In this document: one piece after another, positions 64-57,155 of the stretch
Layout: each line of letters opens with the position of its first letter
How positions within the stretch are numbered: the first letter of the stretch is position 1
IMG/VR virus record: IMGVR_UViG_3300030108_006260
Span: 70,855-134,854 of that record
Reading direction: 5' to 3' (one strand)
Source: a virus
DNA: 64,000 bases
Translations under genes and position numbers: made by a program
The notes under the pieces: generated by a model
The model's input: the letters and a program-made list of their open reading frames with translations, nothing else
Databases searched by the model: none
What the model was told of the DNA's origin: nothing

Positions 64-315
64 ATGCATCATAAAAGAACTAAAGTATTATCTACTTGTA
101 TGATTTCTCCGGATGCAAAACCAGAACTAGTAAGGCTCCTAAATACGTACCTAGAAACGAACGAGAGTGATAAAAGAGTTCGTCTCTGCAAACTAATGGG
201 ATGCAGAGACGAACTCATCACAAGGTGGGCTAAGGGGGAATCAAGACCAGACGGTGTAAACTATAGATACCTAGTTGGAATTCTCAGAACAGAAATAGAG
301 CGAGAAAAAGCCTAG
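64..315 (+). CDS. Small hypothetical protein, possible DNA-binding
   Basis: Unrecognised 83-residue protein and the only plausible plus-strand gene in the window. The C-terminal half (residues about 40-75, LCKLMGCRDELITRWAKGES) has the spacing of a Cro-like helix-turn-helix, but this is inference. It converges on the HNH gene and overlaps its last 4 bases. No clear Shine-Dalgarno precedes the ATG. A short palindrome, cctacaagtagg, lies about 20 bases upstream. It could be a chance ORF. Confidence 0.45.
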   Translation: MHHKRTKVLSTCMISPDAKPELVRLLNTYLETNESDKRVRLCKLMGCRDELITRWAKGESRPDGVNYRYLVGILRTEIEREKA

Positions 316-839
316 TCCTGTTCAAGCTCTCCGTGCCAGTAAGTCCAGTTTACCCACTGCTCAGGAAGAGACATGTGAGGTTCAAGCCTAAATACTATAG
401 CAGGAAGGTACTTGGGCTTAATTGGAACCTTTCGTAGCTTCATTCCTGCTTGTTCAGGCGTCTTACTTCCCTTGCGGTCGTTGCAAGGATAGCAACACAT
501 GACTATGTTCTCCCAGTTGGTAGCTCCTCCTCTAGAACGCGGAACTACGTGGTCGTAGGTGAGTTTCTTAAGCGGAAGAGAATCACCACAGTACTGACAT
601 GAGTAGTCGTCCCTCAGTGCTACGTTTACCCTACTGAACCTTATGGGTCGCTTCTTCCTGCGCACTTTACGAAGTAGACGCACTACGGCAGGCATCTTGA
701 TTGTAATGGACACAGACCTAATATCCTCGTCATACTCCTCAAGGATCTCGATCTTGTCCTCAAAAAACATGCAAATAGCCCTCTGCCAAGAAATGACGCG
801 GTGAGGCTGGTAGGACTGATCTAATACTAAGGTACGCAT
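312..839 (-). CDS. HNH endonuclease
   Basis: 175-residue HNH nuclease. The core runs from CQYCG (about residue 99) through LTYDHVVPRSRGG and NWENIVMCCYPCNDRKG. This gives the DH catalytic pair, the asparagine, and two CxxC pairs that bind structural zinc. The N-terminal half resembles the basic region found in many bacterial and phage HNH proteins of this size. Such proteins cut double-stranded DNA and are often free-standing mobile nucleases, though some act in packaging. It sits downstream of the GGDEF-EAL gene. Which role applies cannot be told from the sequence. Confidence 0.85.
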   Translation of the reverse strand: MRTLVLDQSYQPHRVISWQRAICMFFEDKIEILEEYDEDIRSVSITIKMPAVVRLLRKVRRKKRPIRFSRVNVALRDDYSCQYCGDSLPLKKLTYDHVVPRSRGGATNWENIVMCCYPCNDRKGSKTPEQAGMKLRKVPIKPKYLPAIVFRLEPHMSLPEQWVNWTYWHGELEQD

Positions 840-869: not shown

Positions 870-2870
870 TTATGGTTTTATTTGATGAGGAAATCCAAGG
901 TAGTATCCTTGACCTAGAGTAACTCCTAGGCTCAGAAGAACTTTAATGTCCTCTTCCGAGTTTACGCCTTCTGCAATGCAGTAAGCTCCTTGGGAGTCAA
1001 CAGCGGCCACTAACCTAGACAACCTTTCCTTTTTCCATGGAGTAGAAGAAACATTCTCCACCCATATGCGATCTAGCTTTACAACATCAGGAGCTAGAAC
1101 GATTACTGCGTTTATGGATGCATAGCCTGACCCCAAGTCATCCATGGCTAACTTTATTCCGTACTTTCGTGCTGTATTTCGTACATCGATATAGTTAGAA
1201 TAACTTTCCAGAACTTGCTTCTCGCTAAGCTCAAGGCACACATTCATACCTTCAAGAGAAGAAAGAAATTCTTCTGTAAGAGACCCGAAAGTAGCGGGGT
1301 AGAGATTCACAGAAGCATGCATAAGACCCTCTTTTTTGGCTGCCCCTATACAAGTGTCTAATGCTATCAAATCTACCTTATTCAGGATACCGGCTGAAGA
1401 AGCCGACCTGAACAGTATGTCGGGGTTGGTGAATACCTTATGACGAACAAGATATTCTCCCCCAATAACTTCTCTCGTATTCAAATCAACAATAGGCTGT
1501 ACTACTGCATAGTACAAAGAAGGGTCGAGTAGGCTCTCCTCCGTCTCAGAACCAGGGTAGTCATATGGAGTACCTATTACAACTCTATTTTTACCCGATG
1601 CCTTTGCTTTCAACAAGTGAGGAGAAGAGAGCCTGATAAGGTCATCAATACTTGTAATGTCGGGTGTAAGTTCTATAAGAGCAGCACTGGCCGTGATGGG
1701 AAGTTCGTGCTCTTCTTGCCTTATGACCTTCTCAGATAGTCTAGAGGTGAAAGCAGTACACATCAACTCTGCCTGCGCAAGATTATTGGCAAGGAACAGT
1801 ACTAGGAATTCATCCCCTCCTATCCTAGAAACCCACGCAGGTCTTCCCATAACAGAACGAAGACACTCAGCTGTGTCTCGTAGAACCCTGTCACCTCCCG
1901 CTGTTCCAAGTAAATTATTAAGTTTCTTGAATCCATCCAGGTCCAGCAGCAGAGACCATCCCCTCTGTGGAGAGGCAGTAACAAGACCATGAAGCTGGTC
2001 TAAAGCGTTAGCCAGTCCTGCCCGGTTTAGGGCCTTTGTCAGGGGGTCTATGTGAACCATGTGCTCCAGCCTGGACCTCATGGATTTTATCTTTTTTAGA
2101 GAAGATTCTGCCTCACTAGCCTGGGCAGACACTCTTTGTATGTAGAATATGGATATGCCTACAGCAATAGAAAGAGCGGAACCAAAAGAGAACAGAACAA
2201 AAACAAGACTTGTTTTAACGCCAGAGGACAGTAGAGCTATACTGAAGGCTAGAACTATGGATAGAGAGGCGAAGGGTACAATGTAATGAAATCCTTTGTA
2301 CTCGTTCCTACTTCTTATCCAGTAAGACGCAGTAGAGTAAATAGAGACCAAAAAGAAGTTAGTAGCAGTAGGCAAGGACATCTCATAGATGCCAGGCACC
2401 CAACTTCGGTCCCCTACAAGATATCCCAAAAGAGATGAAGTTGAAATTGCTAAAACTAAAACATATGATGTGGAAGAAAAAACGAACTTCTTACTTATGC
2501 GTAAAATGTGAGCTAACCCCATAAGCACAAAGCCTACTGAGGTTAGAGGTGCTACCTTACTTCCTATGCCAGAAATATATATGAACCCATCTCCCTGTAC
2601 AAGAGTATAAAACAGGGATAGAACACCTAATCCTACTGAAAGATAGGCCCCTACGTACGAGGATGGATTCCTTAAACTATAAACTAATACCAGTAATCCA
2701 ATTGCAGTAACAGGGTGAGTTGTAGCACCTTGGCCAACAAATGCCAAAAGATAGCTAATACCAAACACCCACCCCAACAAGGTCCCCAAAGAGGTTAGTG
2801 CAACATACAACTGAACTACTGTGGCGACCTTACTCAGTAGATTTTCAAAATGTGTAGTCTCTTTATCCAC
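870..2870 (-). CDS. Membrane GGDEF-EAL cyclic-di-GMP protein
   Basis: 666-residue protein predicted to make and/or break cyclic-di-GMP at the inner membrane. Residues about 15-245 hold seven or eight hydrophobic segments, followed by a short coiled linker. The GGDEF domain (about 270-430) has an intact active-site motif (RIGGDEF, 349-355) but lacks the inhibitory RxxD site, which here reads RPAW. The EAL domain (about 450-666) has EYL for EAL (E472), N522, ELSE (547-550), DD 577-578, KLD (K598), AEG (E634) and Q654. Every residue normally needed for phosphodiesterase activity is therefore present. It starts with GTG and has no clear ribosome site. It follows the tRNA island. This is an unusual phage cargo, possibly used to alter host motility or biofilm state. 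Confidence 0.9.
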   Translation of the reverse strand: MDKETTHFENLLSKVATVVQLYVALTSLGTLLGWVFGISYLLAFVGQGATTHPVTAIGLLVLVYSLRNPSSYVGAYLSVGLGVLSLFYTLVQGDGFIYISGIGSKVAPLTSVGFVLMGLAHILRISKKFVFSSTSYVLVLAISTSSLLGYLVGDRSWVPGIYEMSLPTATNFFLVSIYSTASYWIRSRNEYKGFHYIVPFASLSIVLAFSIALLSSGVKTSLVFVLFSFGSALSIAVGISIFYIQRVSAQASEAESSLKKIKSMRSRLEHMVHIDPLTKALNRAGLANALDQLHGLVTASPQRGWSLLLDLDGFKKLNNLLGTAGGDRVLRDTAECLRSVMGRPAWVSRIGGDEFLVLFLANNLAQAELMCTAFTSRLSEKVIRQEEHELPITASAALIELTPDITSIDDLIRLSSPHLLKAKASGKNRVVIGTPYDYPGSETEESLLDPSLYYAVVQPIVDLNTREVIGGEYLVRHKVFTNPDILFRSASSAGILNKVDLIALDTCIGAAKKEGLMHASVNLYPATFGSLTEEFLSSLEGMNVCLELSEKQVLESYSNYIDVRNTARKYGIKLAMDDLGSGYASINAVIVLAPDVVKLDRIWVENVSSTPWKKERLSRLVAAVDSQGAYCIAEGVNSEEDIKVLLSLGVTLGQGYYLGFPHQIKP

Positions 2871-3144: not shown

Positions 3145-3218
3145 TGGTACGGGATACTGGATTCGAACCAGTGTCTCAGCCTTGTAAGGGCCGTGCTAAA
3201 CCACTCAGCTAATCCCGC
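3145..3218 (-). tRNA. tRNA-Val(UAC)
   Basis: Complete cloverleaf on the minus strand. Acceptor GCGGGAT pairs with ATCCCGT, the anticodon loop CTTACAA gives UAC, the T-loop is canonical and CCA is encoded. It is the last tRNA of the first array. Confidence 0.95.
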
Positions 3219-3246
3219 TCTTGTATTTCTTCTTTTACAGAATAGG

Positions 3247-3319
3247 CGGAGGTAGAAGGGATCGAACCTACGACGACCCAGTTTCGAAGACTGGCGCTCT
3301 TCCTCTGAGCTATACCTCC
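3247..3319 (-). tRNA. tRNA-Arg(UCG)
   Basis: Acceptor GGAGGTA/TACCTCC, anticodon loop CTTCGAA, canonical D- and T-arms. The 3' end reads GCCT, so CCA is not fully encoded. Confidence 0.95.
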
Positions 3320-3321
3320 AG

Positions 3322-3466
3322 AGCTTGTTACTACGTGTTTGCGATTAGTTTAGAAGGTAGCTACTCCTTCTGCGTAAGCAACTCTACTCGCCGCTCTCGT
3401 TGAGATCCCGAGTTCCACTGTGCCTAACCATTGACTAGTATGATCGGCACGAGTGTAGTAACAAAC
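3322..3466 (-). ncRNA. Candidate structured RNA between two tRNA-Arg genes
   Basis: A 145-base spacer bounded by the inverted repeat ttgttactac (3325-3334) and gtagtaacaa (3455-3464). Inside are further pairings: agaagg/ccttct around 3351-3370, and GTGCC/GGCAC near the minus-strand 5' end with a D-arm-like CAATGGTTA between. No tRNA fits. Probably co-transcribed with the tRNAs. It could be a processing element or a small RNA. Confidence 0.4.
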
Positions 3467-3542
3467 TGGCAGGGGTGGCAGGGATCGAACCTGCGCAAAC
3501 CCAGTTTCGTAGACTGGTGCTCTTCCTCTGAGCTACACCCCT
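3467..3542 (-). tRNA. tRNA-Arg(ACG)
   Basis: Acceptor AGGGGTG/CACCCCT, anticodon loop CTACGAA, CCA encoded. Reading all CGN codons would need A34-to-inosine editing by a host TadA. It sits close to a second Arg tRNA (UCG). Confidence 0.95.
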
Positions 3543-3543
3543 G

Positions 3544-3614
3544 TGGAGTGGCGAGAAGGAATCAAACCTTCCTTAGCAGGGTTGCAACCTGCTTCGTTCT
3601 CAGAACATCACCAC
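3544..3614 (-). tRNA. tRNA-Cys(GCA) with a minimal D-arm
   Basis: Acceptor GTGGTGA/TCGCCAC with one G-U pair, anticodon loop TTGCAAC, T-arm GAAGG/CCTTC, CCA encoded. The D-arm is reduced to GTTC-TGA-GAAC with a 3-base loop and no GG pair, so the usual D-loop/T-loop contact is missing. Body length is only 68 bases. Confidence 0.85.
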
Positions 3615-3731
3615 AAATCGCCACAAGTAGCACCTCCCGAGCAAGGTCCAATTCTACTTGTGACTTCCCGTCTCTCCGGGCTGTCACCTGCTTTTTCCAT
3701 CCAACGGCCGCTGAGGGTTCGCGGGGATGCC
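3615..3731 (-). ncRNA. Candidate three-hairpin RNA in the tRNA array
   Basis: Spacer between tRNA-Thr and tRNA-Cys with three nested helices: cacaagtag/ctacttgtg (3622-3630 and 3654-3662); a two-part hairpin gtgac-cccg/cggg-gtcac (3660-3687); and CATCC-CCGC/GCGG-GGATG near the minus-strand 5' end. The first two share three bases, so they may be alternative folds. Far more structured than ordinary tRNA spacers. Confidence 0.4.
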
Positions 3732-3806
3732 TGGAGCCCTAGCCCAGAATCGAACTGGGGTTTCATCTTTACCAAAGATGGGTACTAACCATTGTACTAC
3801 TAGGGC
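3732..3806 (-). tRNA. tRNA-Thr(GGU)
   Basis: Acceptor GCCCTAG/CTAGGGC, anticodon loop TTGGTAA, T-arm CCCAG/CTGGG, CCA encoded. Confidence 0.95.
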
Positions 3807-3810
3807 TATT

Positions 3811-3896
3811 TGGCGGAAGGTTGAGGAGTCGAACCCCTACGCGTTAACGCACCTCCGGGTTCAAACCGGATTGCCAACCACTTAGCGGAACCTTCC
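3811..3896 (-). tRNA. tRNA-Ser(UGA)
   Basis: Class II tRNA with a long variable arm (GTGCGTTAACGCG). Acceptor GGAAGGT/ACCTTCC, anticodon loop TTTGAAC, discriminator G, CCA encoded. Confidence 0.95.
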
Positions 3897-3897
3897 T

Positions 3898-3972
3898 TGG
3901 TGGGTCCGGAGGGACTTGAACCCTCAACCGTCAGGTTAAAAGCCTGCTGCACTACCATTGTGCTACGGACCC
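3898..3972 (-). tRNA. tRNA-Lys(UUU)
   Basis: Acceptor GGGTCCG/CGGACCC, anticodon loop CTTTTAA, CCA encoded. The outermost anticodon-stem pair is mismatched. Confidence 0.93.
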
Positions 3973-4003
3973 GGTTGGGCCTTTTATAGTCGGCCAGGAC
4001 TAG

Positions 4004-4076
4004 TGGAACCAGAGGGGATCGAACCCTCAGCCTCCTGCGTGCAAGGCAGGCGCTCTCCCAGTTGAGCTATGGCCCC
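4004..4076 (-). tRNA. tRNA-Ala(UGC)
   Basis: Acceptor GGGGCCA/TGGTTCC with two G-U pairs, anticodon loop CTTGCAC, canonical arms. The 3' end reads ACTA, so CCA must be added. Confidence 0.95.
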
Positions 4077-4128
4077 TTTTTTAGAACGTATCACGTTTTC
4101 AATGAGAGTCAAGAAGATTGACTCAAAA

Positions 4129-4202
4129 TGGTACCGGGTGGGAGAATCGAACTCCCGTATTGAGGACCAAAATCTCATGTCCTACCATTAGACGAACCCG
4201 GA
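4129..4202 (-). tRNA. tRNA-Gln(UUG)
   Basis: Acceptor TCCGGGT/ACCCGGT with an open first pair (U1-U72; tRNA-Gln normally has a weak first pair), anticodon loop TTTTGGT, CCA encoded. An inverted repeat, gagtcaa/ttgactc, lies between it and tRNA-Ala at about 4106-4124. Confidence 0.92.
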
Positions 4203-4203
4203 A

Positions 4204-4290
4204 TGGCGGAAGGAACTGGAGTCGAACCAGATACCACGAGTGTACCAACGGCTTAGCAGGCCGCGCTAGTCCCAGACTAGGTTTCCTTCC
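4204..4290 (-). tRNA. tRNA-Ser(GCU)
   Basis: Class II tRNA with a long variable arm. Acceptor GGAAGGA/TCCTTCC, anticodon loop CTGCTAA, CCA encoded. One base separates it from tRNA-Gln. Confidence 0.95.
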
Positions 4291-4293
4291 ATT

Positions 4294-4368
4294 TGGAGCG
4301 CCTGGAGGGAGTTGAACCCTCGCTTCTTGCTTGGCAAGCAAACGTGCCACCACCAACACTTCAGGCGC
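4294..4368 (-). tRNA. tRNA-Gly(GCC)
   Basis: Acceptor GCGCCTG/CAGGCGC, anticodon loop TTGCCAA, canonical T-loop, CCA encoded. Confidence 0.95.
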
Positions 4369-4372
4369 AAAA

Positions 4373-4450
4373 TGGTGGGAATGGGGAGACTCGAACTCCC
4401 TATCTCACGGGCCACAACCGTGTGCTTCGACCACTTTAGCTTCAGTCCCC
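4373..4450 (-). tRNA. tRNA-His(GUG)
   Basis: Anticodon loop TTGTGGC, acceptor GGGACTG/CATTCCC with one C-U mismatch, and an extra 5' G consistent with the G-1 identity base. The discriminator appears to be A rather than the bacterial C. CCA encoded. Confidence 0.9.
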
Positions 4451-4471
4451 ATAAAGACACAATAGTGCCGG

Positions 4472-4555
4472 TGGAGCGTGAAGGAATCGAACCTCATAGT
4501 ACATAGACACTCGGTTTACAGCCGAGGGCAGGTCCCAGCCTGCTATTCACGCTCC
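4472..4555 (-). tRNA. tRNA-Tyr(GUA)
   Basis: Class II tRNA with a long variable arm, acceptor GGAGCGT/ACGCTCC, anticodon loop CTGTAAA. The 3' end reads ACCG, so CCA is incomplete. Its 5' end overlaps the last 9 bases of the upstream gene. Confidence 0.95.
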
Positions 4556-5101
4556 GGAATTCACGAAGTCCAAAATAACCTCGTTTAGGTAGGAAAGAAC
4601 TCGTGGGTCTTTCTCGTCCCACTTATGCAGCATTAGAACGGAAAGGAGTTCATGGTTTCCCCAATTTTCAATGGCCTCAATGGCTGCTTCCCTTACAGCG
4701 GGATACTCTGATTTTAGTGCAGGTACTGCGAGTCTCTTGTGCCATGACTCGATGCCTTCCATACGTCCCATCAAACGAAGGAAATCAGCAGCCACATGAA
4801 TGTTTACGTCAGAGGGTAGTTCCTCCCAAAAAAGCAAGGTGGCACTCTTTAGGAAGTGAGACGAGAAAGTACCTGTAACGTGCAAACGAAGAGTATCCTC
4901 CATGCAATGACTTTTCCCATCGAATACAGGGTACTCGTGAAGGCTGGAAAGAAAAGAAGAAAAAGAAGAGTCTGTATCGTCTTCTTCATCGTGAAGTAGG
5001 CGATGAAGTTTTTCATTCATTAGTCGCTGCCTTACGAGAGCTTTCTTAGATAGGGATTTAATGGAATCCAGGGACAACTTAGTCTTTTCTTCTTCAGTCA
5101 T
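4547..5101 (-). CDS. Hypothetical protein with HEAT-like helices
   Basis: Unrecognised 184-residue protein. An acidic, serine-rich stretch (about 38-50) is followed by a helical C-terminal half. There VPALKSEYPAVREAAIEAIE (about 126-145) has the shape of a HEAT repeat, a helical repeat used for protein binding. A clear Shine-Dalgarno (AGGA) precedes the ATG by 6 bases. It is embedded in the tRNA array and its 3' end overlaps tRNA-Tyr, so processing of that tRNA would cut the message. Function unknown. Confidence 0.8.
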   Translation of the reverse strand: MTEEEKTKLSLDSIKSLSKKALVRQRLMNEKLHRLLHDEEDDTDSSFSSFLSSLHEYPVFDGKSHCMEDTLRLHVTGTFSSHFLKSATLLFWEELPSDVNIHVAADFLRLMGRMEGIESWHKRLAVPALKSEYPAVREAAIEAIENWGNHELLSVLMLHKWDEKDPRVLSYLNEVILDFVNSGA

Positions 5102-5241
5102 ATGTATCCTGATGACAAAGGGCCGAGAGGACCCTCACGAGTAGTCTAGCGTCCATCCCCAATGGGGATCTTTGCGGACGCTTGCTTGCGCGTCGGCTTC
5201 AATCACATACATTAGTTCACCCTACTGTACTCTAGGTTACT
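5102..5241 (-). ncRNA. Structured spacer between tRNA-Asp and an unknown gene
   Basis: Contains a strong two-part hairpin, gcgtcc-atcccc/ggggat-ggacgc (5149-5181), and a weaker aggg/ccct hairpin at about 5118-5136. It could be a 5' leader of the gene starting at 5101, a tRNA-processing element or a small RNA. Confidence 0.35.
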
Positions 5242-5315
5242 TGGCGGAACGTACGGGGATCGAACCCGTCTCACCCGATAGACAGTCGGGCCGCATCCCA
5301 GATGCGCAACGCTCC
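5242..5315 (-). tRNA. tRNA-Asp(GUC)
   Basis: Acceptor GGAGCGT/ACGTTCC with one G-U pair, anticodon loop CTGTCTA, CCA encoded. Confidence 0.95.
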
Positions 5316-5316
5316 T

Positions 5317-5394
5317 TGGTGGACAGTTACGGAGTCGAACCGTAGTCCTAGTGAGGTCTTTCGATTTAACACTAGTCGAACCCTTCTACTGCCC
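5317..5394 (-). tRNA. Atypical tRNA, anticodon undetermined
   Basis: Good acceptor (GGGCAGT/ACTGTCC), discriminator A and encoded CCA, with a perfect T-arm (TACGG-TTCGACT-CCGTA). The 43 bases between have the right length for a tRNA but no normal D- and anticodon-arms. The best fold is one hairpin, TTCGA/TCGAA, with an 11-base loop. Alternatively CTAGTG pairs with CACTAG around a 16-base loop. It sits one base from tRNA-Asp and two from tRNA-Ile. It may be a degenerate or specialised tRNA. Confidence 0.6.
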
Positions 5395-5396
5395 GT

Positions 5397-5472
5397 TGGT
5401 ACTGCTGGAAAGAATCGAACTTTCGTTTCCTGTGTATCAGACAGGTGCCCTAAACCATTGGACGACAGCAGC
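5397..5472 (-). tRNA. tRNA-Ile(GAU)
   Basis: Acceptor GCTGCTG/CAGCAGT with a G-U first pair, anticodon loop CTGATAC, canonical T-loop, CCA encoded. First tRNA of this array in the direction of transcription. Confidence 0.94.
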
Positions 5473-5477
5473 AAAAT

Positions 5478-6089
5478 CTATTTAAGTAGCCTGTATTTGT
5501 GACGAATCAAGGACACTGCAACATTGTAGTCATGAGCCTTGTCTTTGAGCAGAGCATGGGATACCTTTTCCGCAAAAGGAGCATCCTTTACAAAGGACCA
5601 GAAAGCGTATGGCCAAACTCCTCTAACATCCAGTGAGCAGCAAAAAGACAAAAGCTTCGCGTCTAGAGAGGAAAGGGAATCTCTAGGAAAAATATAGTGT
5701 GATAGAAGAGAGAATGATGCGTTCTTTGACCACTCATCTGCCTTCTCAGACCCTTCCACGACGTAATATGTATAGTTATAACTTGAGGATTTTGTTTCGT
5801 ATGGAGGCTCTCCAACCACAGAGGTACACCCGGATAGAGTTCCTTTTAAACGATCATGAAATATAAATAGATAGTAGTCTTTTCCTGGGGAGAAAGAGAT
5901 AGGAAAGGGGTCTACTCCCCTTACAAGACCATCTTCCAACATCGAAGGTAGAAACCTAACACTGTCATGTCGACCGCAAGTTCCCCGAAGGGTTTCTCCG
6001 GTTTGAATTACAGAAGATCCTCGTACTACAGGAAAATCCTCAGTAGGATAACTTCCTTCAAATCCTACTACTGTTGGTTGATCACTCAT
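5478..6089 (-). CDS. Hypothetical protein
   Basis: Unrecognised 203-residue protein, rich in Ser, Tyr and Phe, with no obvious motif, signal peptide or membrane segment. It ends five bases before tRNA-Ile and is probably co-transcribed with the tRNA array. The downstream-coded neighbour at 6102 has similar length and composition, so both may belong to one phage-specific set. Confidence 0.75.
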   Translation of the reverse strand: MSDQPTVVGFEGSYPTEDFPVVRGSSVIQTGETLRGTCGRHDSVRFLPSMLEDGLVRGVDPFPISFSPGKDYYLFIFHDRLKGTLSGCTSVVGEPPYETKSSSYNYTYYVVEGSEKADEWSKNASFSLLSHYIFPRDSLSSLDAKLLSFCCSLDVRGVWPYAFWSFVKDAPFAEKVSHALLKDKAHDYNVAVSLIRHKYRLLK

Positions 6090-6101
6090 ATCTCTGAAGA
6101 T

Positions 6102-6665
6102 TTACAGTAGGCGACACAGCTTAGGTGCGTAATCATAGTTACTCTCCACTAAAAGTGCAGTAAGTTCTGACAAGTATGTATCTTTCTCTTCTTGTGACTC
6201 CAGGTTAGTCACAAAGTAAGTCACATCTGTAGACTGTGTGTGAATAAGTAGGTCGTAAGAGTAGGTATTGAAAAAAACTCGTGTGACCTTCTTCTCATTA
6301 GGGGTAGCTAGCGGTACCTTCTCTGCGAGAGGGTAACCATTAGAAATTTCTTCCATATGAGTGTATTCTTCTGAGTACACCGGGTAGAACTTGAAGTAGT
6401 TAGGAGGGTAAGACCTTGCATATCTTGATGTAGGAAACCACTCGTTCTTCATGAACTCAATAAGGTCTACTGCGTCACTTGCGTAATATACTACTTTATT
6501 TACCCTATCTATGACTACAAAAAATCGATCGTATTCACCTACTACCGTGGGTGATTTAAGTGGTAGGAACCTGTCCTCAAAGTATACTACGAAGGGTAGG
6601 TATAGGTACTTCCTATAACAACCTAGAACGGTATCCTTTGCTTTTTCAAAGTAAGTTTTCATTTT
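6102..6665 (-). CDS. Hypothetical protein
   Basis: Unrecognised protein of 187 residues if started at the ATG at 6665, which has an AGG ribosome site five bases upstream. The frame stays open to a TTG at 6773, but that extension would cover a tRNA-like gene with encoded CCA (6696-6771), so the shorter start is preferred. The sequence is Tyr- and Phe-rich, with no known motif. Acidic and aromatic residues alternate in a beta-like pattern in the middle (about 20-60). Confidence 0.7.
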   Translation of the reverse strand, partial: KMKTYFEKAKDTVLGCYRKYLYLPFVVYFEDRFLPLKSPTVVGEYDRFFVVIDRVNKVVYYASDAVDLIEFMKNEWFPTSRYARSYPPNYFKFYPVYSEEYTHMEEISNGYPLAEKVPLATPNEKKVTRVFFNTYSYDLLIHTQSTDVTYFVTNLESQEEKDTYLSELTALLVESNYDYAPKLCRLL

Positions 6666-6695
6666 ACCTATGGTACTTTCATAGAAAGTAATGCT

Positions 6696-6771
6696 TGGTA
6701 CTCCCGGCTGGTTATGCTCCAGCTTGACGTCTTTATAAGAAACGCATCCTAACTGATTAGATGACGGGAGC
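6696..6771 (-). tRNA. tRNA-Ile(UAU)-like with an atypical T-loop
   Basis: Acceptor GCTCCCG/CGGGAGT, D-stem ATCT/GGAT, anticodon stem CGTTT/AGACG with loop CTTATAA (anticodon UAU), T-stem GCTGG/CCAGC, discriminator A and encoded CCA all fit a tRNA. The T-loop reads AGCATAA instead of TTCRANN, so standard scanners may miss it. If real it decodes AUA. It overlaps the longest reading of the next gene. Confidence 0.6.
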
Positions 6772-6786
6772 AAAATTTACTTCTTA

Positions 6787-6838
6787 AGTCCCCTAATATG
6801 AGGTCTCCGTAAATGAGTACGGACTGAGCTACGGGAGC
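6787..6838 (-). pseudogene. tRNA remnant or tRNA-like small RNA
   Basis: Starts GCTCCCGTAGCTCAG like a tRNA 5' half, with the same acceptor strand as the adjacent tRNA-Ile(UAU)-like gene. It has a TCCGT/ACGGA hairpin whose loop contains CAT, and a 3' strand (GGGGACT) that only partly pairs with the 5' end. There is no D-loop and no T-arm. It begins within a few bases of a predicted transcription start. Confidence 0.4.
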
Positions 6839-6846
6839 GTGGAAAG

Positions 6847-6876
6847 GTTCTAGCACGAGAACCTTTCGTAAGTCAA
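6847..6876 (-). promoter_or_regulatory. Sigma-70-like promoter
   Basis: The -35 is TTGACT (6871-6876) and the -10 is TAGAAC (6847-6852), with an 18-base spacer ending TCGTGC. It shares TTGACTT and GTGCTAG with the promoter near 49.9 kb. It overlaps a 10-bp hairpin (gaaaggttct/agaacctttc) and points at the tRNA-like sequences at 6838 and 6771. Confidence 0.5.
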
Positions 6877-6884
6877 GAGAAAAG

Positions 6885-7871
6885 TTAGAAAGAATCCAAC
6901 TGGGACTTGAAGAAGTCGCGTCCCAAGGTCATTACTTTCTTATTTACATCCTTGTAAGTCAATCCACTCTCTTCTAAATCTAGAGTACATTCTTTTTGAA
7001 TGTCGTTTGCGAGCCACTTTAGAAAGGTTCCTGTGGAGGTGACATCCAGAGGATGCCCTTCTTCTTTTAGAAAGAAGATTCCCTGCGCAAGGCGTGCCTT
7101 ACTGACTGCGTACTTTACAAAGGCATCAACCGATTCCAGTTTTTCCGGAGACATCTGTGGACCCTTCTTCCGGGGTGCCACCATCTTGTGCTTTTCCCCT
7201 TTCGACTTGAAGGGCAGCACTGGATTTCCAAAGTGCTCCCACATAGGAGTCCATACAACTCCTTCTCCGGTTCCTCTGATCCCAAAGTTTTCGCCCCAGG
7301 GGCAACAATCTTCCACATTGGCAGTAATAGACATTACTTCTTCCATGAAGGAAGATCTGCTTTCGCTACTGCTGAAGTCGACACGGAGTGTGTACGAAGG
7401 AACAGCTAGGATAGAGTGGATCAATCCAGGAGAGGTCACGATTGCGTCAAGTGCTGGAACAGGTACGAGAGGCTGTCCCTTCTCTACCTCTGCATGAACA
7501 GAGAAAAGAACCCACTGCCGCTCGGGTAGACTGTTTACAGCTACCCCTTTCTGGATTCCAGGGCCTACCCACTCCCCAAACAGAACAATGTCAAACTCTG
7601 GGTCGATGGAAAGTTCCCGTCGAACAGAATCCTCGATCTTACGAATCGACTTTTCGTGCTTTGATACAAAGGTAGCAAAACCAAAAGAATCGTTTCGTTC
7701 CTTTGTACGAGACTGAGGGATTAGTTCGCTAGGCGTACATCGTACTCCCGCGTTCGTACCATGAAGCTTCACTGTTCCACGGTACGTAACAACACTACGT
7801 GGTAGCTGACCAGACTTGTCTAGGTACCTAGCTACCTGATAAAAAGAATCGATTGATGGAAACTTGTGCAT
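6885..7871 (-). CDS. RNA ligase, T4 Rnl2 family
   Basis: 328-residue ATP-dependent RNA ligase. The nucleotidyl-transferase motifs are in order: motif I KLHGTN with the adenylated lysine at K35, FGEWVGPGIQKG (about residue 98-109), motif IV EGVVWTP (about 203), and motif V FKSKGEKHK (about 221). The length matches the Rnl2 family. These enzymes seal nicked RNA, and in T4-like phages they repair tRNAs cut by host defence nucleases. The gene lies between the two tRNA arrays, which fits that role. AGGAG precedes the ATG by about 10 bases. Confidence 0.9.
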   Translation of the reverse strand: MHKFPSIDSFYQVARYLDKSGQLPRSVVTYRGTVKLHGTNAGVRCTPSELIPQSRTKERNDSFGFATFVSKHEKSIRKIEDSVRRELSIDPEFDIVLFGEWVGPGIQKGVAVNSLPERQWVLFSVHAEVEKGQPLVPVPALDAIVTSPGLIHSILAVPSYTLRVDFSSSESRSSFMEEVMSITANVEDCCPWGENFGIRGTGEGVVWTPMWEHFGNPVLPFKSKGEKHKMVAPRKKGPQMSPEKLESVDAFVKYAVSKARLAQGIFFLKEEGHPLDVTSTGTFLKWLANDIQKECTLDLEESGLTYKDVNKKVMTLGRDFFKSQLDSF

Positions 7872-7904
7872 TTATTTTTTTCTCCTGAAGGAACAGTGTC
7901 CCTC

Positions 7905-7988
7905 GTTGCTCTCTACCATAAGAAGGGTTGTATCTTCCCTCAACCCAGAGGCTAAGCACCTTGTTGCTCTCTACCATGAGAAGGGTTG
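7905..7988 (-). repeat. Two 26-bp direct repeats upstream of the RNA ligase
   Basis: Copies at 7905-7930 and 7963-7988 start 58 bases apart and differ at one base. Minus-strand core: CAACCCTTCTyATGGTAGAG. A 15/16 match to the first 16 bases (AACCCTTCTCATAGTA) is present at about 14313-14328. They lie between tRNA-Phe and the RNA ligase, so they may be operators, promoters or RNA-binding sites. Confidence 0.65.
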
Positions 7989-8018
7989 AAACAAGTATGT
8001 AGAGGCAGTTTATTATAG

Positions 8019-8093
8019 TGGTGCCCCGAACAGGAATCGAACCTGTGACCACCGGGCTTCAACCGGCCGCTCTACCAACTGAGCTATCGGGGC
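8019..8093 (-). tRNA. tRNA-Phe(GAA)
   Basis: Acceptor GCCCCGA/TCGGGGC, anticodon loop TTGAAGC, canonical D- and T-arms, CCA encoded. Last tRNA of the second array. Confidence 0.95.
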
Positions 8094-8094
8094 G

Positions 8095-8169
8095 TGGCAG
8101 GCCACTAAGGACTTGAACCCTAACTAACGAATTTGGAATTCGTTGTGCTACCAATTACACTAGTGACCT
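8095..8169 (-). tRNA. tRNA-Trp(CCA)
   Basis: Acceptor AGGTCAC/GTGGCCT with one G-U pair, anticodon loop TTCCAAA, discriminator G, CCA encoded. Confidence 0.95.
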
Positions 8170-8170
8170 A

Positions 8171-8246
8171 TGGCGGGAGATGCAGGGTTTGAACCTGCGA
8201 CAATTGAGTTAACAGCTCACCGCTCTACCAACTGAGCTAATCTCCC
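8171..8246 (-). tRNA. tRNA-Asn(GUU), copy 1
   Basis: Acceptor GGGAGAT/ATCTCCC, anticodon loop CTGTTAA, canonical arms, CCA encoded. Confidence 0.95.
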
Positions 8247-8248
8247 TT

Positions 8249-8325
8249 TGGCGGGCCCTGCAAGAATCGAACTTGCCTTATTCTGGTTAACAGCCAGGCG
8301 CACTCACCAGAGGTGCTAAGGACCC
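8249..8325 (-). tRNA. tRNA-Asn(GUU), copy 2
   Basis: Acceptor GGGTCCT/AGGGCCC with one G-U pair, anticodon loop CTGTTAA, CCA encoded. The sequence differs widely from copy 1, so this is not a recent duplication. A gcaggga/tccctgc hairpin follows at 8330-8349. Confidence 0.93.
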
Positions 8326-8376
8326 ATTGTGCAGGGAAGCCACTCCCTGCGGACAAATACGTATTCAGTTTTCAAG

Positions 8377-8451
8377 TGGATCGGGAGGCTGGGTTTGAAC
8401 CAGCGACATACGGAATCAGAACCCGTCGTTCTACCACTGAACTACTCCCGA
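8377..8451 (-). tRNA. tRNA-Gln(CUG)
   Basis: Acceptor TCGGGAG/CTCCCGA, anticodon loop TTCTGAT, discriminator U, CCA encoded. Complements the UUG isoacceptor in the first array. Confidence 0.94.
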
Positions 8452-8452
8452 A

Positions 8453-8528
8453 TGGTGGATCTGTGGGGAATCGAACCCCAAATCGTCCGGTTAAGAGCCG
8501 GCTGCTTTACCATTGAAGCTACAGATCC
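8453..8528 (-). tRNA. tRNA-Lys(CUU)
   Basis: Acceptor GGATCTG/CAGATCC, anticodon loop CTCTTAA, CCA encoded. First tRNA of the second array. It starts about 25 bases past a terminator, so it is either read through or has its own start. Confidence 0.95.
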
Positions 8529-35097: not shown

Positions 35098-36966
35098 CTA
35101 GGACAAAACAGTAAGTTCCCACTTGGCCTGACCACAATCCCACAGTTTGACTAGCCCATGCTCGTATCCAGTCTTTCCTGGATATCTCAGGCGGTGAAAA
35201 ACGGAGGTAAAATCAGTCCAACCGAAAGACACACCCTCTCGTACAAAGGACCATCCCTGCATCGGGAGGTGAGACCCAGTCCCGTATCTTCGATCTATAA
35301 AGGTTTGAATCTTATCAGGTTTCTCCTTTTCGATTACTCTCTTTACAAGGCGTGACCACCCACCTACTACAGAAATACCTTTAGAAGTACAAAATCTAGA
35401 AATATCCAATACACGTTTTCCGGTACCCGGAACCCACTTTACCTGAATAGCTGCCACGGTATGGCCCTCGTAGTCTAAAGAATAGATCCTACCAGAACCT
35501 TTCCCCATCAAATGGTTCTCCTCAAAGAACGAAGGAAGAGACGTAGAATGTGAGCACTTACGTGCATATACTTTACGAGAAAGTCCTAGGGCATTTGAGA
35601 TAATGCTTTGACATACCTCAGGCTTTGATATAATTTCGTCCTTACGAAAAGCAAGATGACGATAACCAGCTTTTTCAAGTGTGTCTCTTTTATTTATATG
35701 GTAATTCTTATCTCTCTTCAGCTCCGAATGCCAATATAGGCCATCACACTCAATGGCCACCATTGCTGAGGGTATAACGAAATCGGGCCTTACTCCACTA
35801 ACAAAAGAGTTGAACTCGTAGTCTATCCCCAACGAATTAATCCAGGATTCTACAGTTGCCTCAATTCCTGTACGTTTCATTATGAGTTTCCCATCAACGA
35901 AACGATCTACGTTAGAGGCTATTACGCGACAAGGGCTTTCTTTAAGGAGACATAAAAGAGAGGCCCCTTCTTTGACAAATTCCTCGTCGTTAATTAGATC
36001 CTTGACCTGGATAAGGTGAGATACGCTTGATACAGCTCCAGAGTCCGTAAGAGATTTCTTTGTATCGATGTGGTCAACTACCAGAAATCGTCCTGGCAAA
36101 ATATCGTCGAGAGCTTTTTGATAGTACTCAGGTACTGGAATATCTAGCCTAAAATTGTAGTTAGGATCCTCTTTTAGCCTAGCCTGTAGGTTATACGCGC
36201 TGTATGAGAATTCGTAGTCTTCCCTAGAATCTAATATTCGGAAGCGGTATCCAGAAACAGGACAGTTATGCTCAAGAAATAGAATATTAAGGTGACTTGC
36301 CCCCAATTTATTGACCTTCTTCTGCCACTTGTGTACAGGGTCATCAGTCAAAGACTCCTCAAATCTGTGCCGAGGGTTTTTTCTAAGAGAAGAGCGTAGA
36401 TGCGGCCACCCTACCTTAATCTCGTCGTCCTCTAAGGAGTCATAACAACAAATTAGAGGACGTCCTCCCGTGCTACCCACAACGCGTACATCACTAAATC
36501 TGTCAGGAGCTAACTTCTCTATCTTTGATGCCCACTTAGCGTTTTCATCCAAGACACTCGTAAATGTACGTACCGGATCTTTTTCTAGTTCATTCAAAAG
36601 CTGGTGAACCGACTTGTATGTGAACTCGTACCCATACCTAGTGTCCTCAATAACACAAAAGCCCTTTTTCACTCTCTTTGGGACTAGATGCGGGTATTTT
36701 TCCAGCGCGTGTTCCCATTTGGAAACTCCCTTAAGTCGAGAAGATGTGGGCCTGAATCTATGTCCTGGGTCCTTTTTGAGGATATGCTTCATGGAAGCGT
36801 AGTTGTATACGAACTCGATTCCGCGATGAGTGTCCTGGAAAAGAAACTTGTATATGGTCTGCTTTTTCCTGAGGACTTCATGAAGAGAAACGATCTTATA
36901 CCTATCACCAAAACCAGACTGGTTTAGGTCCTCTTGATACTTCTCTACGATCTCGGAATCTGTCAT
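35098..36966 (-). CDS. EDxHD homing endonuclease with tandem DNA-binding repeats
   Basis: 622 residues. The catalytic part (about 375-455) resembles Vsr-like EDxHD nucleases such as I-Bth0305I: RPDFVIPSAMVAIECDGLYW, then H-x-x-K-R-D and a C-terminal basic strand. At least four N-terminal units of about 75 residues share L-x-x-D-P-x-x-x-F followed by K-W-x-x-x-L/I (about residues 60, 130, 200, 275), likely DNA-reading modules. The 160-residue tail (FFEENHLMG...DISRFCTSKG) is the domain often found after such nucleases. Inserted between sheath and tube genes, consistent with a mobile free-standing gene. Confidence 0.82.
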   Translation of the reverse strand: MTDSEIVEKYQEDLNQSGFGDRYKIVSLHEVLRKKQTIYKFLFQDTHRGIEFVYNYASMKHILKKDPGHRFRPTSSRLKGVSKWEHALEKYPHLVPKRVKKGFCVIEDTRYGYEFTYKSVHQLLNELEKDPVRTFTSVLDENAKWASKIEKLAPDRFSDVRVVGSTGGRPLICCYDSLEDDEIKVGWPHLRSSLRKNPRHRFEESLTDDPVHKWQKKVNKLGASHLNILFLEHNCPVSGYRFRILDSREDYEFSYSAYNLQARLKEDPNYNFRLDIPVPEYYQKALDDILPGRFLVVDHIDTKKSLTDSGAVSSVSHLIQVKDLINDEEFVKEGASLLCLLKESPCRVIASNVDRFVDGKLIMKRTGIEATVESWINSLGIDYEFNSFVSGVRPDFVIPSAMVAIECDGLYWHSELKRDKNYHINKRDTLEKAGYRHLAFRKDEIISKPEVCQSIISNALGLSRKVYARKCSHSTSLPSFFEENHLMGKGSGRIYSLDYEGHTVAAIQVKWVPGTGKRVLDISRFCTSKGISVVGGWSRLVKRVIEKEKPDKIQTFIDRRYGTGSHLPMQGWSFVREGVSFGWTDFTSVFHRLRYPGKTGYEHGLVKLWDCGQAKWELTVLS

Positions 36967-53006: not shown

Positions 53007-56000
53007 CTAGTCTTCCACTTGAAATTCTGGACTAGTTTCAGCAATAACGTGCCAGGGAGTCCCAGATTGAAGCATGGAGTCCCACTCTTTACACCTATCA
53101 AAGATTGGCCTAAGTCCACTACCTACTCCATCCCACCCCAGCATGTGACCCCATCGTACACCAAAGTCGTAATCAATTTCCATGGGGACAATCATGTCAA
53201 TACCGAATTCCTCTTTAAGGAAAGAAGGAACTTGGTCTACCATCTTTTCCTGGAGAACGGATACTACCTCCTGAACCATGTCAAAGTCCATAGGAACTTC
53301 CATTGTGATAGCATCATGAACGCAGTTAATAATCTTATAGGGTCGATCATTTCTCTCTATCCAGTCCTGGATGGCCCAGGCACACAAAGCGGTAGTATCA
53401 CTACTCACTGCCTGTATGGGACTGTTACGTGCTCTTCTCTTAGCTCCATTCTCGTCCTGTTCAAACAGGTCTCTCAAGTGCCTAACTCTACCCATAGGAG
53501 TAGAAACGAACCCCATAGACTCAGCTTCTCGTTCGATGTCACTAAGCCACTGGCCTGCTCTCTCAAATTCATTAACGAAGGTACCCTGTAGCTTTAGGGC
53601 TTCGTCGGGTGTAATGCCCAGAAGAGAAGCCAGGGTCTTAAAGTGCTGACCATAGATAGATCCGAAACACAAACTCTTTGCCCTCTTACGTTCATCCCCC
53701 GTTACATCATAAACAGACTTCTGAAACATGATCGAGGCCACCTTCTTATGTATATCGGCCTCTGCTTTTACTCGATTACCTAGTTCTTCGTCCCCTGTAA
53801 GTTTATATTCGTCACGAAGATTTTTCATTTCGTGGAACAACCGGGCATACTGAGTGTCACCCGCAAGCTGAGCCCACCAACGAACCTCTGCCTGACCAAA
53901 GTCGCACTCTACAAGGATATGTCCAGGCGAAGCGCCATAAATAGACCTAATAGCTGCTTTGGCGTTGTTACCCTTTCCCTTGGGGAGCTGCTGGAGGTTT
54001 GGGTCCGAAGAATTGTGCACTACAATTCCATCTACAAGGAATGACCTAGTAGCAGGAACCTCTAGGTCGTACACCTTCTGTGCTCCCAACGATTCCACTC
54101 TAATGATTTCAAATGACTTCGAATTTGATTCTAACGCCCAGTGAACAAATTCAGCGGACTCGCCGTGCTCTGGCCCAACTGCCGAAGTTACTAGGGACTG
54201 TACCTTCCTGGTGATCCTAGCCGTCTTTCTGTTTCGGGCTTTATGTAATCTATGATAATCAGGTGAGGAGCACCCTTTTCTTCCGATCAAGTTATGATGA
54301 ATCTTAACAGGCTTCCAAAATGAGTCAAAGTCAAACCAGGAGGGCTTGAATACACCAAGGTGAATGGAATGCTTACGAATCTGATCTCTTTTTAGAGAGG
54401 ACCAAAAAAGCCATGAAAGATCTTGGTCATTAGATACCAACACTGAGTACTTCGTACTGTTACGGTCGGGCCTCTTACTACTGGATATAGAATGGTGAAT
54501 TCCCAAGCTAGAAAGGAGCAAACCTACTCCCTCTGCAAGTTGCCTGCTCTCGGTAGAAAGTCTAGGATCTCCAGATGAAGACCCCGCGTCCCCTTCAAAT
54601 AGACCCTTCAAAAAGGATCGTCTCTCAGACAAACCAGAAGAGAAAACAGATTCAGGAACTAAAGCATTCCTAGACTTGTACCCAAAACCGTTCTCGACTA
54701 GCCAACGAGATAAATCAACAGAACTACATTCCAGGGTAGGGGAACCGTTCTCGTAGTAAGAAAACTCTACCCCAAAGACTTCCTTCCACTCTGACGTGAG
54801 AAAATCTCTCAGGGGTTTTTCATCCCATCCCAGGGCAATGATAACCTTAGATGGAACCTTTCCCTTCCTGTTAGGTTCTTTCTTTGTTGGTCGTAGATTG
54901 TTGTATCCTATACACCCCTCAGCAACAAAGTGTCCGAGAAGGAATGCAACTCTGCTGTCCATAGTGGAGGGGAAGGTAGGAGTGTTGGATCGTCCTACAA
55001 TAGTAGAAGGGGGTGATAGAGTAGAATGATTTGATACATCAGGTCCCTCTCTACCAGAAATGTAGAGGTCGTCACCCTCTTTCAGGTTCTGTGCCTCCGT
55101 CCACTTTCCATCTGAGAATACACGATGAAGGGGTGAACATCGGAGCTTTTTCCCGTTAGATAAAGTGAATTCAAGTATTTCTTTAGTTCCAGCTTCCCAA
55201 GCAGACTTAACTTCTTGAATCCCACGATCAGTTTGTATCAGATCCCCAGGAACTACCTTTTCAATAGGAACGAGACCAGAGTCCGTAGCTATTCTTGTTC
55301 CAGCAGGAAGACAAGCCAAGCGCCCCGTTACTGTGCGAGTAGCATGGAATCTTGCGTGTATCTTACCGTCTTGTTTGTTATCTGGTTTGGATACCAATAT
55401 GTCGCTAACAGAGTCCAGGTACGAAGAGATCAGCTTATCTAGACCCGTATACTCCTTGTATAGAGAAACTACCGGATGTTTCTTGTAATGGTCAAGGTAG
55501 GCTTTATCAATCTGAGGCTCGTCCGTCTTCTTTGAAAAAGATATAGGCTCCAGTCCGCAAGCATCTACAAACAAACGAAGCTTGTGCTCCTTTTTACGGA
55601 GGGAGAAAACCCATGGCTTCTTTCCAAAAAGAGGAGTCATCCCTGCTGTCTTACTGTCCTTCTCAAGAAGGATCTCATTCGCTTTCTTGGCCTCTTCGGA
55701 AGCCTTTATTAAACCAGGTATCTCATTGTACCTTGAAATAATAGGAGAATCTTCTGACTTTAGATAGGACAACTGATCTACATCAGTAGCAAACCCATTT
55801 ATGCTCATCTTCGTAAGAAGATGAAAAATACGGCTATAAAACTTTTTAGCGAAAGGAACAGCTGAAGAGTACCCCTGCCTCTCTAGCCAGAGTCGGTAGA
55901 AGTCGAAGATCCTTCTCGTGATGTAGGCGTCTGTTCCTCCGTATTCAGAAAGACGGTCGAGAGAAAGATTCCAAAGGCTACCACCAGAGGCGCCAGAACG

Positions 56001-57155
56001 AGCAGCAATGGCATCAGATAACTCCGTATCATATGTATAAAAACCAAGAAGCTCACGTGCCAAAGTTTTAAGTGCAAAACTGGTGAATACTGCGGACTTC
56101 TTGCCTCCGTCATCATCACCACACTGATTCTCGTCCTGTAGGTAGGCCAAGAACATCGTGTCAACTACTGGCTTTGCGATCTTTTTTAGCTTAAGGAAGT
56201 TGAATGTGATACCTCCATCGAACTGCGCGTTGTGCATCAGCCAGAAAGGTATCTTTGTCTTTCTACTTCCCAGGAGGCGTCTAAGACGCTTCCTTACGTG
56301 TCTAAGTTCTTCTTTAGACCAAGGGGACTCCCAGTGCTGAAGAGGAATAACGTGTGCTTTATCGTTTGAAGCAGAAAACTGGATAGTAGCTACACGGTTC
56401 CGCGCAACATGATTTAGGTTTTCTGTCTCATAGTCGAGGGACACATATGTATCGCAGTCCTGCTCATACCAGTCCATCAACTCATTGAATCTGTCCAGAT
56501 CCAATATTGTCTCAATTTCTCCTTTAGCAGAGAAAGAGGTAGTCTTACCGGAAGCGAACCTTCCTGCTGACCTCATGTGCCTATAGAAGCGTCTCCTCTG
56601 CGTGGCAGACTCGCTTCTTAGGTAGGTAGAGGGAGGAAGCGTAACAAGATGGGTACGCCCGCTTTTAGTGATGTAAGCGTGCCCTCGTAGAGATCCTACG
56701 TTTACTTTTTCCCATTCTGGGTTCTCGTTCAAAACCCTTAGTGTAGTGTTGCCCATCATAACGACAACTTTTGGGTTAAGGGCCTCTATGTCCTGCTTGA
56801 TATAGTTAGAACATGCGGAAATCTCTTCTGTGGTAGGAGGCCTGTTAGACCCGTCATCAGCCACAGGACGACAACGTACTAGATTTGCCAGTGCGTAGGA
56901 CCCATCACTACCAGCTCTCTTTAAAGCAGAGAATATTTCCTTGCCACTAGACCCTGCGAATGGCATACCTAGAACATCCTCTGTCCTACTGGGCATGTCA
57001 CCTATGACCATAACGTCTACTTCGGGTGTTTTCTCGTCAGGACCTACCCTATCATAAACAACGTCAGTAGGTATGTACTGTTTTCGTACACGCTTTGATC
57101 TGTATAGGGGGCAGGCACTACAAAAGTCCTGGTCTTGATAGAGAGTGAGTCTCAT
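53007..57155 (-). CDS. UDG / exonuclease / family A DNA polymerase with intein
   Basis: 1382 residues as encoded, 948 after removal of an intein (615-1048). Residues 1-195 are a family 4/5-type uracil-DNA glycosylase (four Cys for Fe-S: C12, C15, C95, C115; motif PFAGSSGKEI). Then a DnaQ-like 3'-5' exonuclease (SLDYETENL, HNAQFD, TDAYIT), then the family A polymerase. Motif A reads VECDFGQAEVR (D1085). Motif B has KRAKSLCFGSIYGQ. Motif C is VHDAI rather than the usual VHDEL. It may remove uracil ahead of synthesis. Probably the replicative polymerase. Confidence 0.93.
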   Translation of the reverse strand: MRLTLYQDQDFCSACPLYRSKRVRKQYIPTDVVYDRVGPDEKTPEVDVMVIGDMPSRTEDVLGMPFAGSSGKEIFSALKRAGSDGSYALANLVRCRPVADDGSNRPPTTEEISACSNYIKQDIEALNPKVVVMMGNTTLRVLNENPEWEKVNVGSLRGHAYITKSGRTHLVTLPPSTYLRSESATQRRRFYRHMRSAGRFASGKTTSFSAKGEIETILDLDRFNELMDWYEQDCDTYVSLDYETENLNHVARNRVATIQFSASNDKAHVIPLQHWESPWSKEELRHVRKRLRRLLGSRKTKIPFWLMHNAQFDGGITFNFLKLKKIAKPVVDTMFLAYLQDENQCGDDDGGKKSAVFTSFALKTLARELLGFYTYDTELSDAIAARSGASGGSLWNLSLDRLSEYGGTDAYITRRIFDFYRLWLERQGYSSAVPFAKKFYSRIFHLLTKMSINGFATDVDQLSYLKSEDSPIISRYNEIPGLIKASEEAKKANEILLEKDSKTAGMTPLFGKKPWVFSLRKKEHKLRLFVDACGLEPISFSKKTDEPQIDKAYLDHYKKHPVVSLYKEYTGLDKLISSYLDSVSDILVSKPDNKQDGKIHARFHATRTVTGRLACLPAGTRIATDSGLVPIEKVVPGDLIQTDRGIQEVKSAWEAGTKEILEFTLSNGKKLRCSPLHRVFSDGKWTEAQNLKEGDDLYISGREGPDVSNHSTLSPPSTIVGRSNTPTFPSTMDSRVAFLLGHFVAEGCIGYNNLRPTKKEPNRKGKVPSKVIIALGWDEKPLRDFLTSEWKEVFGVEFSYYENGSPTLECSSVDLSRWLVENGFGYKSRNALVPESVFSSGLSERRSFLKGLFEGDAGSSSGDPRLSTESRQLAEGVGLLLSSLGIHHSISSSKRPDRNSTKYSVLVSNDQDLSWLFWSSLKRDQIRKHSIHLGVFKPSWFDFDSFWKPVKIHHNLIGRKGCSSPDYHRLHKARNRKTARITRKVQSLVTSAVGPEHGESAEFVHWALESNSKSFEIIRVESLGAQKVYDLEVPATRSFLVDGIVVHNSSDPNLQQLPKGKGNNAKAAIRSIYGASPGHILVECDFGQAEVRWWAQLAGDTQYARLFHEMKNLRDEYKLTGDEELGNRVKAEADIHKKVASIMFQKSVYDVTGDERKRAKSLCFGSIYGQHFKTLASLLGITPDEALKLQGTFVNEFERAGQWLSDIEREAESMGFVSTPMGRVRHLRDLFEQDENGAKRRARNSPIQAVSSDTTALCAWAIQDWIERNDRPYKIINCVHDAITMEVPMDFDMVQEVVSVLQEKMVDQVPSFLKEEFGIDMIVPMEIDYDFGVRWGHMLGWDGVGSGLRPIFDRCKEWDSMLQSGTPWHVIAETSPEFQVED
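54012..55313 (-). mobile_element. LAGLIDADG-type intein in the DNA polymerase
   Basis: 434 residues, from Cys615 (CLPAGTRIATDSG, block A) to His1047-Asn1048, followed by Ser. Splicing would join TGRLA to SSDPNLQQLP, restoring the conserved family A motif TGRLSSSDPNLQQ. The middle has two LAGLIDADG-like helices (FLLGHFVAEGCI about 738-749 and FLKGLFEGDAG about 848-858), suggesting an active homing domain. Block G reads VVHNS. Confidence 0.92.

Follow-up and report, generated by a model that had tools for sequence, protein, structure and literature searches.

A large tailed phage encodes a diverged, probably active membrane protein with GGDEF and EAL domains

A protein of 666 residues combining a membrane region, a GGDEF domain and an EAL domain was found in the genome of a tailed phage, represented by an IMG/VR record of 240,443 bases (about 240 kb). 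It is a genuine phage-encoded protein that follows a known enzyme architecture and is probably active, in a setting that is uncommon for it. Sequence and structural model together point to a probable membrane-anchored enzyme candidate for making and/or destroying cyclic di-GMP (c-di-GMP). The strongest new points are the presence of a second c-di-GMP gene nearby, the catalytic residues kept by a protein that has otherwise diverged strongly, and the finding that paired c-di-GMP genes recur in other large phage records. The window, that is, the whole stretch of 64,000 nucleotides that was analysed, corresponds to positions 70,855-134,854 of the record, and the features of the locus are collected in Table 1.

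Table 1. Features in and around the GGDEF-EAL gene (positions in the window)
Feature	Position	Strand	Description and basis
HNH nuclease gene	312..839	-	30 nt downstream of the GGDEF-EAL gene; 56% identical homologue in G001
8TM-GGDEF-EAL protein CDS (P0001)	870..2870	-	666 aa; GTG start; open reading frame without internal stop
EAL domain	897..1502	-	Residues 457-658; Pfam, alignment, model, structure comparison
Metal-binding pair of the EAL domain, DD577-578	1137..1142	-	Translation, alignment
EAL signature, spelled EYL	1449..1457	-	Residues 472-474, E472 being the metal ligand position; translation, alignment
GGDEF domain	1587..2057	-	Residues 272-428; Pfam, alignment, model, structure comparison
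GGDEF motif	1806..1820	-	Residues 351-355; translation and homologue alignment
Last membrane helix running on into linker helix	2052..2213	-	Residues 220-273, up to the GGDEF domain; model
N-terminal membrane region	2145..2867	-	Residues 2-242, eight predicted helices; hydrophobicity and low-pLDDT model
Structured leader just 5' of the start codon	2887..3130	-	24-nt inverted-repeat arms around 195 nt of hairpins
Array of 21 tRNA genes	3145..8528	-	Upstream of the leader, with protein genes interspersed

The dual-domain assignment made in the first-pass annotation was confirmed by a Pfam profile search, which placed both domains above the curated cut-offs (PF00990, 83.6 bits, E 1.7e-23, cut-off 23.8; PF00563, 110.7 bits, E 9.6e-32, cut-off 31.3). 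Structure prediction, proposed there as a check on the active sites, also yielded two confident domains matching solved GGDEF-EAL enzymes. Indeed, in an AlphaFold2 model built from 48 sequences, pLDDT was mostly above 90 from approximately residue 250 onward, and the best matches among solved structures were the GGDEF-EAL modules of RmcA (5m3c), MorA (4rnh) and RbdA (5xge). The GGDEF domain was superimposed on Dcsbis (4zmu; Z 24.2, rmsd 2.0, 164 residues) and the EAL domain, which adopts in the model the barrel fold of solved EAL enzymes, on PdeA (4hjf; Z 26.0, rmsd 2.6, 231 residues). Regarding the membrane region, six clear peaks were detected in the hydrophobicity profile, and the model shows, with low confidence, eight helices at the N-terminus, the eighth of which enters the GGDEF domain; the count of seven or eight membrane segments suggested earlier is reasonable, but not proven. 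Folded alone, this region reached a pLDDT of 47, too low for the model to be of use. Residues 1-254 gave no match to any Pfam or NCBIfam family or to plasmids, and no significant match in the loci retrieved for comparison. The N-terminal part is a putative membrane sensor with no relatives detectable by sequence.

Conservation of individual residues was read from an alignment with 47 GGDEF-EAL homologues, which had been collected through motif patterns and then ordered by their similarity. All the active-site residues listed in the first-pass annotation (GGDEF 351-355, E472, N522, D577/D578, K598, E634 and Q654) were found at their positions in this alignment. In the GGDEF domain, D310, K315, N318, D327 and K423 are also kept, occupying the positions of PleD D327, K332, N335, D344 and K442, so that the whole set of PleD residues binding metal, guanine and phosphate is retained (roles in PMC7288161). 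The EAL catalytic set is complete, with E472, N522, E547, D577, D578, K598, E634 and Q654 aligning with RocR E175, N233, E265, D295, D296, K316, E352 and Q372; E547 and E550 (RocR E265 and E268 positions) extend the earlier list. The position of RocR E355 is occupied by N637, a change that need not matter, because TBD1265 can do without the corresponding glutamate (PMC12943098). The position of PleD R446 holds a lysine (K427), as in 13 of the 47 homologues. The reported loss of the product-inhibition site was also corroborated: G342 and A345, nine residues upstream of the GGDEF motif, replace R359 and D362 of the PleD RxxD site. This inhibitory site is common in GGDEF domains, not universal. 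Losing this host-type feedback site fits a viral enzyme, but glycine or alanine also occurs in these two columns, each in 9 of the 47 homologues.

Outside these positions the protein has changed considerably, and the description "catalytically complete" holds for the first-shell residues but not for the second shell, where near-invariant positions are altered (D319N, H323T, G397A, D416S, F579L). Near-invariant columns are lost at 6 of 29 positions in the GGDEF domain and 8 of 31 in the EAL domain, and the other 47 sequences lose at most 3 and 4, respectively, a contrast somewhat inflated by the choice of the comparison set by motif patterns and similarity rank. Its end branch was the longest in a quick tree (5.75, median 0.85). 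The Pfam scores agree with strong divergence, since three other phage GGDEF-EAL proteins reach 137-154 bits for GGDEF and 204-226 bits for EAL, compared with 84 and 111 here. By these comparisons, the 666-aa protein is the most diverged among the set of 47 relatives, with its catalytic positions spared. That the catalytic residues persist in the protein with the longest branch and the greatest number of near-invariant losses suggests selection on the chemistry. Searches of viral_contigs and genome_contigs with single-sequence patterns returned no close relatives, and the pairing of the protein with L168 on the tree was flagged as long-branch attraction and set aside.

A second GGDEF gene was found by searching the record with the GGDEF-EAL protein. 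It lies outside the window, 2.5 kb from the first gene, at record positions 68,232-69,230 on the minus strand (L002:1501-2499), with a tRNA gene closely downstream. It encodes a response-regulator receiver domain (37.2 bits) followed by a canonical GGDEF domain (135.7 bits), and by inspection its inhibition site is intact (RSED). The activity of this REC-GGDEF protein is uncertain because its C-terminus is shortened, ending soon past the K442 position, and a histidine stands at the PleD R446 position. No relatives of it were confirmed in viral_contigs. Between the two c-di-GMP genes, on the opposite strand (record 69,278-70,469, +), two adjoining lipoprotein-like proteins are encoded, one of them with the metalloprotease motif HEIGHALGLAH.

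Immediately upstream of the GGDEF-EAL gene, the leader has arms that are 96% complementary and a minimum energy of -109 kcal/mol (z -5.9). A riboswitch was considered and discarded, given that Rfam yielded nothing up to a permissive E of 5 and that no other copy was found in the searched parts of this genome (G000) and of the larger phage records G001 and G002, in phage records, or in viral_contigs by arm pattern. A structured leader, a decayed tRNA remnant and a small inverted-repeat element are the candidates for this sequence.

c-di-GMP is the swim-or-settle signal in many bacteria. With moderate confidence, we favour a phage-borne, membrane-anchored c-di-GMP turnover enzyme, mainly a phosphodiesterase, that retunes the host during infection. 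An eight-helix membrane sensor would be coupled via a long helix to the GGDEF domain and then to the EAL domain, which is the ordinary design of bacterial sensor-GGDEF-EAL proteins. The main activity would reside in the EAL domain as a c-di-GMP phosphodiesterase, and the GGDEF domain would bind GTP, regulate the EAL domain and perhaps keep some cyclase activity without product inhibition. The REC-GGDEF protein, with its intact inhibition site, would offer a slot for a host kinase. Through both proteins, host c-di-GMP could be moved up or down by two inputs, biasing motility, adhesion or surface polysaccharide. Some phages use surface polysaccharides under c-di-GMP control as receptors (phage N4 receptor, PMC8669472). 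A feedback-free, membrane-gated enzyme acting with a phosphorelay-type cyclase could rewire the host's choice during replication, or change receptors to the disadvantage of competing phages.

A net phosphodiesterase, rather than a cyclase, is most likely in view of what is generally seen in GGDEF-EAL hybrids and of the cleaner EAL catalytic set. A truly bifunctional or cyclase-dominant enzyme, which would raise c-di-GMP without feedback owing to the loss of the inhibition site and push the host towards a sessile state, is an unlikely alternative. It draws on the retained PleD D327, K332, N335, D344, GGDEF and K442 positions and on the missing inhibition site (PMC7288161 for roles), but it has to accommodate the lower score of the GGDEF domain (83.6 versus 110.7 bits), the complete EAL domain, the lysine at the R446 position, and the loss of D319, H323, G397 and D416, each kept in at least 45 of the 47 homologues.

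The altered near-invariant, non-catalytic positions affect both domains, either of which could be inactive. Another alternative is a catalytically dead LapD/FimX-type receptor or scaffold, which would bind c-di-GMP and signal across the membrane. The membrane-GGDEF-EAL architecture is LapD-like, the fold also matches LapD and FimX, and the 6 of 29 and 8 of 31 altered positions speak in its favour. Nevertheless, degenerate receptors lose metal-binding residues (PMC7288161), whereas all the EAL catalytic residues are present here, and this reading is considered quite unlikely.

The phage origin of the gene, stated in the first-pass annotation, was upheld by colinearity with two large phage records and by phage genes flanking the locus on both sides. 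A 1159-aa protein of the record, which reads like a tail sheath from its N-terminus, retrieved G001 (423,825 bases) and G002 (392,328 bases) with 66-67% identity. Beyond 79.7 kb, as far as the record extends, most genes are colinear with both, and to the left of the c-di-GMP locus there are many genes with homologues in them, as is the case for the metalloprotease pair at 69.3-70.5 kb, found in both. PHROG matches in the record include an SbcC-like protein. The PF03237 terminase was not found in G000, G001 or G002, and it is therefore synteny and other genes that identify the record as a phage. The GGDEF-EAL gene itself is absent from the colinear G001 and G002. Its codon usage is close to that of genes shared with relatives (rank 18 of 128 genes) and is phage-typical.

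These data also bear on whether the gene is an unused passenger, recently picked up from a host. The EAL domain is absent from 16 other clade records, several of them fragments, and the gene sits in a variable region beside tRNAs and the HNH gene, as a passenger might. However, recent acquisition and decay are disfavoured because the 666-aa frame is intact, codon usage is phage-like and the catalytic residues are kept on an exceptionally long branch, which renders this explanation very unlikely. A role in counter-defence, in which the EAL domain would clear away a cyclic-dinucleotide alarm of host anti-phage defence instead of tuning lifestyle, has a precedent in jumbo-phage phosphodiesterases suggested to disrupt nucleotide-based defences (PMC13282480); EAL domains, however, are largely c-di-GMP specific, and a membrane sensor with an attached GGDEF domain fits regulation better than simple depletion, making such a role highly improbable. 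An assembly chimera or bacterial contamination, brought to mind by the many GGDEF/EAL matches in public phage records that look like host DNA, was rejected as scarcely credible on account of synteny with G001/G002, where genes flanking both sides, including the HNH gene and the metalloprotease pair, have homologues, and of the phage-matching codon usage.

Other features of this genome deserve mention. The variable region holding both c-di-GMP genes carries a large tRNA complement (record 45.8-78 kb and window 3145-8528). A 1382-aa DNA polymerase I-like protein (window 53007-57155, -) reads as intein-containing, its relatives aligning over approximately 670-680 residues only; the proteins at record 213,899-217,195 and 218,050-221,763 likewise show only partial alignment with relatives. 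Four endonuclease-like genes (window 35098-36966, -; record 222,618-224,855, 229,091-230,617 and 232,328-233,992) have no homologues in G001 or G002. Three of them end in the motif IWDCGQAKW or near it, the one in the window has a weak match to Vsr/MTES_1575-type nuclease profiles, and together they are probably a spreading homing-endonuclease family.

The first-pass annotation regarded cyclic-di-GMP enzymes as rare in phages. This view was supported in part: within the clade, PF00990 matched 1 of 16 other records tested and PF00563 none of the 16, many of these records being fragments, but other phages do carry GGDEF or GGDEF-EAL proteins. The single clade match (G015) is a lone GGDEF protein of 184 aa (L076:1486-2040, -) with the motif GGEEM and the inhibition site RGGD. 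Scanning 2.9 million viral contigs by motif provided 98 relatives for the GGDEF-EAL alignment, many of which are probably host DNA; most INPHARED matches to GGDEF/EAL also resemble host DNA (unannotated contigs of short length, bacterium-named records) and were excluded as phage evidence. Four GGDEF-EAL genes among these relatives nevertheless lie beside phage-type genes (for example 5'-3' exonuclease or ribonucleotide reductase), in the IMG/VR phage records G017 (543 kb), G019 (63 kb, GAF sensor), G023 (137 kb) and G027 (172 kb, protein of 671 aa), the PF03237 terminase being found in G019 and G023 among these. In G027, a distant relative, the gene for the 671-aa membrane GGDEF-EAL protein precedes one for a 425-aa membrane GGDEF protein whose GGAEF motif is possibly degenerate, and both genes (L203:5287-8846) lie among phage structural genes, after homologues of the conserved proteins of this clade. 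A second GGDEF gene occurs in G017, GGDEF and EAL are encoded by separate genes in G028, and a 497,513-base viral record has GGDEF and no EAL. Clear matches in BFVD were GGDEF proteins of uncultured Caudovirales, Bacillus phages G and SP-15 and Bordetella phage CN1, none of them named as a GGDEF-EAL protein.

The phage GGDEF-EAL proteins did not form one group on the quick tree, where the branches with strong support cannot be reconciled with fewer than two label changes, a pattern consistent with separate acquisitions. As far as these genes indicate, phage c-di-GMP enzymes are uncommon, not unprecedented, with several other large viruses having such putative enzymes. We tentatively raise the broader possibility, which we hold to be doubtful, that very large phages repeatedly and independently put together small c-di-GMP control sets to take over the motile/sessile decision of the host while infecting it. 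Such sets might comprise a sensor-GGDEF-EAL protein and a separate GGDEF (this phage, G027 and G017) or a GGDEF and a separate EAL (G028), and the present protein would then be an enzyme that evolves fast, is adapted to the phage and is gated by a membrane sensor of no known kinship. The GGDEF-EAL gene described here is a directly testable case, and the recurrence of such genes in unrelated phage records provides a comparative set.

Among known systems, the bacterial enzymes RmcA (PA0575), MorA, RbdA (PA0861) and BifA share domain order, folds and catalytic residues with the phage protein, which differs from bacterial GGDEF-EAL enzymes in its low identity to them (approximately 20-26%), its phage origin, its putative membrane sensor without detectable relatives, and unusual losses at near-invariant non-catalytic positions. 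The PHROG family phrog_11823, annotated as "unknown function", matches residues 253-661 across GGDEF and EAL (E 3.3e-42) and stops short of the membrane region. In the open literature, phages with a single GGDEF were found, but no publication on a phage GGDEF-EAL hybrid, nor any on the proteins of G017, G019, G023 and G027. Bordetella phages LK3 and CN1 (Vojvodinavirus) and Pseudomonas Yuavirus likewise encode a GGDEF enzyme (single-GGDEF genes of LK3 and Yuavirus in PMC8471281), and LK3 lysogens show hyperbiofilm and increased motility (PMC8471281); unlike the present protein, theirs have a single GGDEF and no EAL, and belong to temperate siphoviruses. GGDEF genes also occur in Bacillus phages G (BFVD Gp350), which is also very large, and SP-15, and in a Mu-like virus of the Cariaco Basin (PMC7785012), as far as seen with GGDEF only, in contrast to the GGDEF-EAL combination here. 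The proteins of G017, G019, G023 and G027 have GGDEF and EAL in one protein and phage-type neighbours as in this phage, but carry canonical, higher-scoring domains and different sensors, and are scattered over the tree.
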